Origin: an uncultured Eubacteriales bacterium
GTDB lineage: Bacteria; Bacillota; Clostridia; Christensenellales; Aristaeellaceae
Assembly: GCA_902801765.1 (NCBI GenBank)
Contig: CADCJO010000011.1
Coordinates: forward strand, 1 to 61,879
DNA: 61,879 bases
Direction: 5' to 3'
Shown here: positions 6,762 to 61,879 of the stretch, one piece after another
Layout of the letters: each line of letters starts with the position of its first letter
How positions within the stretch are numbered: position 1 is the first letter of the stretch
Position numbers and translations under genes: made by a program
Notes under the pieces: generated by a model
What the model was told of the DNA's origin: nothing
What the model saw: only the letters and a program-made list of their open reading frames with translations
The model's database searches: none

Positions 6762-7110
6762 CTAAATTCTTAACAAGTATATTTTCAAGGGCGAATTTCA
6801 AAGCCGACGAGGAGGAGACGCTGGGGGCTGCGCGCCCCCAGACCTGCGCCAGGGCGGTGACCGCCCTGGACCCGCAACTGGCAAAATAACGTAGTTGAGG
6901 TAAGCGGACAAGCTCCGCCTGCCGCGCTGGGGTTACGGAAAGTTTGAGGGCTTCTGGCCCAAGAAAGCCAGGGAACATCCGAGGGGAAAGTGAACTTTCC
7001 ACCTCGGATGATTCCCTGGCTTTCCCCGGATGCAAAGCATCCGGGCTGGCGGCTTCGCCGCCGGGCCAGCGCCCCGTCGTTTGATTTAACCCTTTACAAC
7101 ATGACTGTTA
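6762..7110 (-). repeat. Long multi-hairpin intergenic element, copy 1 (inverted, short form)
   Basis: This non-coding stretch lies between the NACHT gene and copA. It reads as the reverse complement of the element at 22491-22982. It contains a CTGGGGGC/GCCCCCAG hairpin (6821-6841), CCAGGGCGG/CCGCCCTGG (6849-6869), a long interrupted stem (about 6963-7024), a CCGGATGC/GCATCCGG stem just after it, and a GGCGGC/GCCGCC stem. The ends carry CTAAATTCTTAACA (6762-6775) and ATGACTGTTA (7101-7110). Compared with copy 2 it lacks the block with the GAGGGCC and CCAGGAGA hairpins. I see no gene in 6619-7150. Confidence 0.85.
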
Positions 7111-7150
7111 GTATTTTAGAAGATGAATGAGCATTCGCTGTGAATGATGA

Positions 7151-22490: not shown

Positions 22491-22982
22491 CTGTTAACAT
22501 TCATGTTGTGAAGGGTGAAAAACAAAGACGAGGCGAGGGCCTGTGCGGCCCTCGTTCACCTGCACCAGGAGATTTCATCTCCTGGACCTCAATAGCGGAT
22601 ATTGCTTGATTTGTAACATCTGCTTGCTTCCCGCTGATATTTGGAGAAACGCGAAAGTTTGGCTTGGTACTGTGGTGCTTCTGGCCCGGCGGCTGAAAGC
22701 CGCCAACCCGGATGCTTTGCATCCGGGGAAAGCCTGGGAACAATCCCGAGGGGAAAGTGAACTTTCCCCTTGGGATTTTCCCGGCTTTCTTGGGCCAGAA
22801 GCCCTCAAACTTTTCGTATCCCCAGCGCGGCAGGCGGAGCATGTCTGCTTATCCCGAAAACGTAATATCGCCAGTTGCGGGTCCAGGGCGGTCACCGCCC
22901 TGGTTGGGGTCTGGGGCGAACAGCCCCAGCGTAATCTACTCTTTGGATTTGAAATTCATCCTTGAAAGCAAACTTGTTAGTA
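22491..22982 (+). repeat. Long multi-hairpin intergenic element, copy 2 (full length)
   Basis: This non-coding stretch fills most of the gap between the RDD gene and thiI. In order it has CGAGGGCC/GGCCCTCG (22534-22554) and CCAGGAGAT/ATCTCCTGG (22565-22585). An outer 11-bp stem then pairs 22677-22687 with 22792-22802. It encloses GGCGGCT/AGCCGCC (22688-22704), CCCGGATGC/GCATCCGGG (22707-22727) and a long hairpin (22728-22789). CCAGGGCGG/CCGCCCTGG (22883-22903) and CTGGGGC/GCCCCAG (22911-22929) follow. The ends carry CTGTTAACA and ACTTGTTAG. Several ORFs cross it, but they run through the palindromes and have no ribosome sites. Confidence 0.9.
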
Positions 22983-22993
22983 ATATAAATAGT

Positions 22994-23024
22994 GAAGGAA
23001 GCCGTCTTTTCAACAGCTTCCTTC
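22994..23024 (-). terminator. Hairpin after thiI, possible terminator
   Basis: On the complement GAAGGAAGC pairs with GCTTCCTTC just beyond the thiI stop. The downstream bases (ACTATTTAT) are only moderately T-rich, so termination may be partial. Confidence 0.5.
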
Positions 23025-23030
23025 AAAGCA

Positions 23031-24182
23031 TTACAATTCCACGATTTCCGTATTATCGATAGCGGCCTGAATCAAAGCTTCCTGGTCGAGGGCGTTTTCA
23101 CCCTTCTGAATCAGGGCTTCCTTGGGCTTGGTGGCTGGATGGCGGGGAGTAAAGACCGTGCAGCAGTCCTCATAGGGCAGGATGGAGGTTTCATAGGTGC
23201 CGATCTTCCGGGCATACTCCATGATGTCGATTTTGTCAAAGCCGATAAGGGGGCGATAGACCGGCATAGTCTTCACCACTTCGTTGGTGGTGATCAGCGC
23301 TTCCATGGTCTGGCTGGCCACCTGGCCGATGGATTCGCCGGTGATCAAGGCCATGGCCTCTTCCTTTTGCGCGATGCGCTCGGCAATGCGCATCATGTAG
23401 CGCCGCATAATGAGGGTGGTGTAATCCTCCGGGCATTTTTCGTGAATCTGCATCTGAATCTCGGTGAAGGGCACCACATAGACCTTCAGCCCGCAGCAGT
23501 ATTCGGACAGGATTTTGGCTAAATCCAGCACCTTCTGCTTGGCAAATTCGCTGGTATACGGGAAGGAATGATAGTGCACCGCCACCAGCTGCACGCCGCG
23601 CTTGGCGATCATGTAGCCCGCTACCGGGCTGTCAATGCCGCCGGAAAGCAGCAGCGCCGCCTTGCCGCCGGTGCCCACCGGCATACCGCCCACGGCGGGG
23701 TACACCGTGCAGTACAGATACGCCTGATCGCGGATTTCGATGGAGAGCACGTGCTCCGGCTTGCGCACGTCCACCTTCAAATGGTCTTCGTTACGCATCA
23801 GCACGTATTCGCCCACCTGCATATTGATCTGGGGAGAGGTGAGGAAATAGTGCTTGTCCGCCCGGCGGGCCTCCACCTTGAAGGTGCCCGAGAGGCCCTT
23901 CATCAGCTCGTTGGCCTGTTCGCAGATACCCTCGAAGTTGTCCTTTTCCATTTCAATGGCGGGTGCGATGGAGTGCACGCCGAACACCTTCGCCACCCGC
24001 TGCATGCATCCCTCAAAGTCCTCCGCGTCGCTGATGAAAATGCGGGCGTCGTGGAGCCACACCTGGCCCCCGAAGGGCTTGGCCGCTTCCCTGACCCGCT
24101 TGACCAGGGCTTTCAGAAAGTAAGGCCGGTTCAGACCCTTCAAATAAATTTCGCCGTAGCGAACCATGAGCAGTTTTCGCAT
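23031..24182 (-). CDS. thiI: tRNA 4-thiouridine synthase ThiI
   Basis: A 383-residue cytosolic enzyme that activates U8 of tRNA and inserts sulfur. The N-terminal ferredoxin-like region and THUMP domain (about 1-165) bind the tRNA acceptor end. The PP-loop SGGIDSPVA near residue 180 adenylates the uridine, and conserved cysteines follow in a CCTVFTPRHP segment. There is no C-terminal rhodanese domain, so sulfur must be delivered directly by a desulfurase, as in Bacillus with NifZ. That partner is encoded 15 bp upstream. Confidence 0.95.
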   Translation of the reverse strand: MRKLLMVRYGEIYLKGLNRPYFLKALVKRVREAAKPFGGQVWLHDARIFISDAEDFEGCMQRVAKVFGVHSIAPAIEMEKDNFEGICEQANELMKGLSGTFKVEARRADKHYFLTSPQINMQVGEYVLMRNEDHLKVDVRKPEHVLSIEIRDQAYLYCTVYPAVGGMPVGTGGKAALLLSGGIDSPVAGYMIAKRGVQLVAVHYHSFPYTSEFAKQKVLDLAKILSEYCCGLKVYVVPFTEIQMQIHEKCPEDYTTLIMRRYMMRIAERIAQKEEAMALITGESIGQVASQTMEALITTNEVVKTMPVYRPLIGFDKIDIMEYARKIGTYETSILPYEDCCTVFTPRHPATKPKEALIQKGENALDQEALIQAAIDNTEIVEL

Positions 24183-61738: not shown

Positions 61739-61879
61739 CTAAATTCTTAACAGTCATGTTGTGAAGGGTAAAAAGCAATAACGAGGCGAGGGCCTGTGCG
61801 GCCCTCGTGCACCTGCACCAGGAGATTTCATCTCCTGGACCTCAATAGCGGATATTGCTTGATTTGTAGAATCTGCTTG
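61739..61879 (+). repeat. Long multi-hairpin intergenic element, copy 3 (cut by window end)
   Basis: This begins with CTAAATTCTTAACA and TCATGTTGTGAAGGGT. It then follows copy 2 with only a few differences over about 125 bases, through the GAGGGCC/GGCCCTC and CCAGGAGAT/ATCTCCTGG hairpins and the ATAGCGGATATTGCTTGATT segment. The rest should continue past the window. Confidence 0.85.

Follow-up and report, generated by a model that had tools for sequence, protein, structure and literature searches.

What kind of genetic object is a stretch of nearly 500 bp that holds no plausible gene and consists of a chain of short-loop stems? The question is raised by positions 22491-22982 of the window, that is, the whole 61,879-nucleotide contig (C11) of an uncultured Eubacteriales bacterium of the family Aristaeellaceae, and the first-pass annotation of this DNA had proposed a structured non-coding RNA, a non-autonomous mobile element or a transcription boundary. 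Every stem of the chain described there is present. The whole element, ~490 bp long, non-coding and sited past a gene 3' end, occupies positions 22494-22980 of the plus strand as a full-length copy of type A, with terminal repeats matched at both ends. Its plan is inverted-symmetric: a terminal repeat, a two-hairpin arm with a pseudoknot between loop and linker, a cloverleaf of 124 nt, an inverted arm and again a terminal repeat. Read inward from either end, the order is terminal repeat, ACG, hairpin H1, linker, hairpin H2 and GGACC, the right end following the plan of the left one on the opposite strand and the two arms being inverted copies of one plan. The parts are listed below, with some of the stem coordinates taken by eye.

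22494-22516, plus strand: left terminal inverted repeat, type A (motif search and alignment of copies)
22534-22554, plus strand: left arm hairpin H1, 8 bp, with the 5-nt loop TGTGC
22562-22564, plus strand: linker GCA, able to pair with the 3' part of the H1 loop (pseudoknot, from loop-linker covariation)
22565-22585, plus strand: left arm hairpin H2, 9 bp, with a triloop
22595-22634, plus strand: P3 lollipop, 4-bp stem 22595-22598/22631-22634 and a loop of ~32 nt (RNAalifold consensus, weaker evidence)
22677-22802, plus strand: centre, a cloverleaf with the closing stem 22677-22687/22792-22802 (covariation, model R1)
22688-22704, plus strand: centre hairpin a
22707-22727, plus strand: centre hairpin b
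22728-22789, plus strand: centre hairpin c, long, with a tetraloop
22833-22872, minus strand: right-side counterpart of P3 (consensus-fold columns, weaker evidence)
22883-22903, minus strand: right arm hairpin H2', 10 bp
22911-22929, minus strand: right arm hairpin H1', 7 bp, with a 5-nt loop
22958-22980, minus strand: right terminal inverted repeat, type A (alignment of copies)

The closing stem of the centre is complementary at 11/11 positions and holds three hairpins, two short and one long, in agreement with the branched junction described earlier. Folding of the 492 nt gave z = -12.5 as DNA and -13.4 as RNA relative to dinucleotide shuffles, none of which folded as well as the element (0/100 as DNA, 0/100 as RNA). 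The consensus pairing of P3 corresponds to alignment columns 71-74/107-110 and that of its right counterpart to columns 338-342/374-378; these lollipops vary little across copies, so their pairing is poorly tested by covariation. Directly to the right of the element, at 22993-23025, lies another hairpin (GAAGGAAGC/GCTTCCTTC), which may terminate transcription of the minus-strand ORF 23031-24182; a similar one occupies the same place in loci L136 and L137.

Scattered over the 2.4-Mb draft genome are no fewer than 74 copies in which the centre can be recognised. A covariance model of the cloverleaf, R1, found 74 centre matches at E <= 1e-10 (78 own-genome sources), several of them partial or with inserts, and the central 17-mer occurred at 84 own-genome places with at most 2 mismatches (59 with 0, 20 with 1 and 5 with 2), as compared with 6 matches at up to 3 mismatches for the same 17-mer read backwards. 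By blast, 40 candidate places in the own genome were scored, and all of them matched. Besides the copy described above, the window contains two others:

6770-7111, minus strand: second copy, with both type A ends and the left arm deleted (R1 centre match 6951-7071)
61747-61879, plus strand: third copy, cut by the contig end

Both had been noticed before, as an inverted repeat at 6762-7110 and a copy at 61739-61879, so that the recurrence first perceived was real, and only its extent, two additional copies as against dozens genome-wide, was understated. The truncation of the third copy is due to the end of the contig, the window comprising the contig in full. Furthermore, 35/93 contigs of the assembly, which is 81% complete, have a B end (the second type of terminal repeat, see below) at most 300 bp from their start, into which the element runs; the assembly therefore breaks in copies, and the true copy number is higher than the one counted. 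Individual copies deviate from the common plan in several ways. A segment of ~110 bp in L129 (332-441) is a deletion derivative with two type A ends and a fused H1'/H1 remnant, without the centre; the right-side P3 region of one copy (L017) bears a tandem duplication of ~24 bp (GGCGGAGCTTGTCTGCTTATCCAG); and in L111 and L235 the part comprising left arm and P3 is swapped for another hairpin piece (TCACGGGGCTGCCGCCCGGCC...), which resembles a piece in L125.

The copies have been inserted, as relatives carry empty sites at two loci. At the main site, 7 loci of relatives could be matched on both flanks, and 0/7 contained an element match; the stretch from flank to flank measured 52-220 bp in 6/7 of them versus ~530-740 bp here, and the seventh locus (L139) had ~1 kb of other DNA between the flanks. 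At the second site, 6770-7111, the 260 bp next to the shared gene end contained no copy in 6 of the 7 best-matching relatives (of 11), while the seventh (L336) had a copy of a different type further on. Conserved neighbours were absent from the filled/empty comparison around L010. The proposed comparison of filled and empty sites thus yielded empty sites, but not the target-site duplication that was to be looked for alongside them: no consistent one was detected among the candidate pairs of ends (44 of type A, 21 of type B), a few of which pair the ends of a single copy in alternative ways.

The ends of the element are of more than one kind. The TTAACA and TGTTAG motifs that had been taken for its ends are indeed there, within a longer, imperfect terminal inverted repeat of ~23 bp (type A; left consensus TTAACAGTCATGTTGTGAAGGGT, with a variant of it at the right), but they do not represent the sole end type. 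The type B repeat, TTAAAGGGCACTTTAATTCACTA, is unrelated to type A and surrounds the same core, and a third type (F), around ACAGAAATTTGACGGGGAAAGG, was seen by eye in genus g36. The type A end motif had 102 own-genome matches versus 2 in the backwards control, and the type B motif 99 versus 0. The flanks of both repeats varied among copies, with almost nothing conserved beyond B ends and only a weak extension beyond A ends. Hence, the core is combined with three or more unrelated kinds of end, and in some copies with none: a recognisable terminal repeat was absent by eye from 8/66 labelled core rows (L022, L032, L034, L036, L037, L094, L095 and L101), so the core may be moved by way of something other than these repeats. 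L106 also has neither A nor B ends (by eye), and L032 and L106 begin no more than a few bases from a stop codon.

How these modules are combined was followed on a tree of the centres, which rests on ~255 columns and is weakly resolved. End type required 13 changes on this tree versus 16.2 with shuffled labels (7/200 shuffles as low) and 3' hairpin type 24 versus 25.1, while 5' hairpin type followed the tree, with 10 changes and 0/200 shuffles as low. As end type and 3' hairpin type show little agreement with the centre tree, modules have to a large extent been shuffled between copies. The centre of L106 lies inverted with respect to its own arms, and in L094 the right arm belongs to the type usual at the left. 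Two other repeats were encountered at the copies. One is a second hairpin-rich element (CCGAAACGAGCAAT...GACGATTGAGGCTGCGGAT) located inside stems or loops of the first in L028, L031, L039, L081, L089, L174 and L234, for example in hairpin H1, H2 or a, as if it targeted hairpins. The other repeat (AACGTAGCGCTGCTACGCCTCCCTTCAT...TTTAGACGAGAAATAGTAT, or parts of it) lies beside or inside copies in L015, L016, L038, L080, L125, L129 and L131 and has ends that resemble the weak extension found outside type A repeats.

Throughout the family the architecture remains constant while the sequence diverges, the lowest pairwise identity among centres being 0.37. In an alignment of 36 copies from the own genus, 24 of the 106 predicted pairs showed double changes. 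In 34 diverse centres, 94.7% of the cells were paired and 31/50 pairs doubly changed; in 31 centres from 28 genomes, in an alignment fitted to model R1, the corresponding values were 96.8% and 42/50. The doubly changed cells in these 31 centres numbered 267 versus 60.9 in shuffles (0/500 reached the observed value), and slid versions fell to 14-22 pairs. Even in the closing stem, the innermost pair of which is ~104 nt apart, 8/10 pairs were doubly changed, and in most matches the centre kept a length of ~120-130 nt across genera (L311, with 94 nt, is an exception). Within an arm, loop and linker form a pseudoknot: the 3' end of the linker can pair with the H1 loop in 90/117 distinct H1-linker sequences with loops of at least 5 nt, as compared with a mean of 34.2 and a maximum of 49 over 1000 re-deals of the linkers (the 278 arms and 124 centres are partly double-counted through overlapping loci sources, and distinct counts were used where possible). 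This loop-linker pairing exists in three main states, each across 15-17 different stems, with exceptions including TTC/CAA (7) and TGC/CCA (3). Base pairing is thus conserved through near-total sequence turnover between genera, and the covariation check suggested earlier ended in strong compensation in the centre. Decayed coding sequence, the other origin that had to be considered, was rejected, as it is pairing and not a reading frame that the copies conserve, and indels of 1-2 nt occur among them.

The recurrence of the family outside this genome, which had likewise been named as decisive, was also found. By blast, matches were present in 28/29 genomes of the genus (the own one included), in 0/7 other genera sampled in the family and, as three weak matches, in one genome of another family (G042); a wider blast gave 17/200 genomes and 3/50 genera. 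Model R1 reached 22/200 genomes of the bacterial family, in 4/50 genera, with 12-17 of 17 scored candidates matching in 10/11 genomes of the own genus and 14-17 of 17 in 5/6 genomes of g36, and only 1-2 matches in g34, g71 and one g36 genome. Across the order, R1 matched in 5/396 genomes and 3/142 genera, among them a genome of another family with a single centre match at the end of a contig (L316, G387:C70:9-133), which could be due to transfer or contamination. Among the matches listed for an exact 20-mer (at least 73), the named records are Clostridia or Christensenellaceae assemblies, and the sources named in titles are goat reticulum and red deer. A phage or plasmid origin was rejected, as there was no match in a phage collection or a plasmid collection; a scan of viral contigs with the central 17-mer gave 13 matching stretches, which were left out of later counts.

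Among the three options initially proposed, that of a non-autonomous mobile element has the strongest support, namely dispersed copies, terminal inverted repeats and element-free orthologous sites. We consider it probable that we are dealing with a high-copy passenger of MITE or REP-like kind, in which interchangeable terminal repeats surround a conserved folded core. A bolder version, which we regard as rather doubtful, would make it a class of mobile DNA defined by its shape, in which inverted-symmetric, pseudoknotted arms and the cloverleaf are recognised as folded single-stranded DNA by a putative enzyme, the stems are free to change and the same core rides on unrelated terminal repeats.

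The strongest competitor is a structured RNA or mRNA 3'-end element, into which the transcripts of neighbouring genes would run, to be terminated or protected by the folded RNA, the inverted arms serving either side. Its appeal lies in the genomic context, for which we used a home-made, strand-aware codon-usage caller trained on the window alone rather than curated annotation, because open antisense frames hide the gene strand. Among the 54/62 copies with both neighbours well scored, 22 had convergent, 31 co-directional and one divergent neighbours, so that at least one gene 3' end faces the copy in 53/54, a location that would also suit a transcription boundary, the third of the options initially proposed. 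For sides with both an end motif and a called gene, 68/92 face a gene 3' end, the median gap from stop codon to element end being 30.5 bp, and in a strict scan only 16/68 of these facing gene ends have a terminator-like hairpin of their own before the element. The arms add to this: read inward, 140 distinct arm stems contain 52 A.C versus 19 G.T mismatches, the H1 part of the count including chance hairpins, and H2 stems alone, the cleaner set, 18 versus 3, which means that the outward strand tolerates G.T. Such a bias would suit RNA at a 3' end, but equally a single-stranded substrate of an enzyme. Strong covariation, predicted for an RNA and indeed found, and the pseudoknot speak in the same sense. 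The centre, however, shows neither the G.U tolerance nor the strand preference expected of RNA. Wobble makes up 1.8% of its standard pairs, and in 1532 cells G.T is hardly more frequent than A.C (26 versus 23), although by pair types it exceeds A.C in alignment A4 (16 versus 8); in alignment A2 the balance is 29 versus 41 cells and 17 versus 17 pair types, while six tRNAs from the same loci, a small control, gave 8 wobble and 0 A.C of 133. Loops of the centre occur in both orientations, as reverse complements, the triloop of hairpin b being TTT/TTC in 60 and AAA/GAA in 34 of 97 counted (some loci twice). The co-directional copies likewise lack a clear orientation bias, the neighbouring genes running against the element in 18 and along it in 13. 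Finally, the window contained no Rfam match at gathering score, and 8 matches by E-value all fell below the gathering scores of their families. Rare wobble, loops in both orientations and the lack of a clear gene orientation bias point to DNA, and the structured-RNA reading appears possible though not probable.

The same features could, in part, have a purely mutational origin: selfish palindromes might be kept perfect by quasi-palindrome correction and gene conversion, with no selection on folding. Low wobble could indeed reflect palindrome-correcting mutation rather than selection on DNA, and the scarcity of wobble intermediates, the loops in both orientations and the shuffling of modules between copies would all be accommodated. 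Such a process is nevertheless difficult to reconcile with double changes in 8/10 pairs of a closing stem with ~104 nt between the bases of its innermost pair, with a short loop-linker pairing that covaries over 15-17 stem sequences per state, and with the near-constant length of the centre across genera (L311 excepted), and we hold it to be unlikely. An even smaller chance, indeed a very small one, is given to a REPIN-type element moved by a RAYT (Y1 HUH) transposase working on single-stranded hairpins. Inverted hairpin arms, high copy number, location at gene 3' ends and the lack of a target duplication would fit, and a PF01797 match was found in 10/29 genomes of the genus, clearly so in the element-bearing G003, G018 and G020; against it, PF01797 had 0 matches in the own genome (81% complete) and in seven element-rich relatives, G019, G007, G013, G004, G005, G010 and G023 (incomplete assemblies). 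An autonomous partner was likewise absent between the terminal-repeat pairs of the loci examined, the longest of which span 716 bp (A) and 566 bp (B), and, by eye, among the A and B end matches of the own genome, the assembly of which is incomplete and breaks in copies.

Returning to the mobile passenger, we infer its mode of life, including the DNA-level reading, the mobilising enzyme and any host benefit, as follows. One or more transposases reading the terminal repeats would move the copies in trans. The core, presumably conserved as folded DNA because G.T wobble is scarce, the centre has no strand preference and the loops appear in both orientations, would be kept for its fold, adopted by single-stranded or cruciform DNA that is exposed, for example, during replication. 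Recombination and template switching between copies might rewrite stems as whole perfect palindromes and homogenise the set of each genome. Copies would persist past stop codons, where harm is least, and there they may serve as bidirectional mRNA 3' ends.

Several known systems resemble the element in part. MITEs are short, non-coding sequences with terminal inverted repeats and many copies, lacking a transposase of their own. The element is like them in being non-coding and multi-copy, with terminal inverted repeats at both ends and no own transposase, and unlike them in that one core occurs with three or more unrelated types of terminal repeat, or lacks them, that no consistent target-site duplication was found, and that structure is kept across genera while sequence is replaced. 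Integron attC sites and the ends of IS200/IS605 are DNA recognised by its folded shape, with the sequence free to vary; they are strand-specific and have a known recombinase. Our element shares the retention of shape under varying sequence, but its centre lacks strand preference and no enzyme is known to act on it. OLE, ROOL, GOLLD and HEARO are large ornate bacterial non-coding RNA folds with covariation, some of them from Clostridia; the element resembles them in its large ornate, covarying fold and differs in its very low G.U, inverted symmetry and dozens of dispersed copies per genome. The closest likeness in habit is to REP, BIME and REPIN repeats, which, according to Di Nocera (2013, PMC3733652), are inverted hairpin units of high copy number with diverse stems, intergenic, with convergent or co-directional genes on either side and the 3' ends of genes close by. 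There, REP repeats of bacteria are mostly small hairpins of 20-40 bp, and CGTC-tagged REPs have no known transposase. In contrast, our element measures ~490 bp, with a cloverleaf of 124 nt, a pseudoknotted two-hairpin arm and terminal repeats; its arms start with ACG inward and carry no GTAG or CGTC tag in the position described for REPs (PMC3733652); and, unlike for REPINs, this genome has no RAYT match. The element is REP-like in habit, MITE-like in its ends, and larger and more elaborate than either. The open-access literature, a scope outside which most subscription papers and bioRxiv preprints lie, yielded no description of such elements in these bacteria, which is weak evidence of novelty.

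For these uncultured gut bacteria, the family means in practice that element copies break their assemblies and that copies may set the mRNA 3' ends at many genes. In more general terms, REPs are described as mostly of 20-40 bp (PMC3733652), while here an element of ~490 bp has maintained an intricate fold from genus to genus, and the G.U wobble characteristic of RNA is scarce in its centre. If the DNA reading is true, the family would be a test case both for structure-recognised DNA with a very large natural set of mutations and for telling selection on RNA from selection on DNA by wobble statistics.
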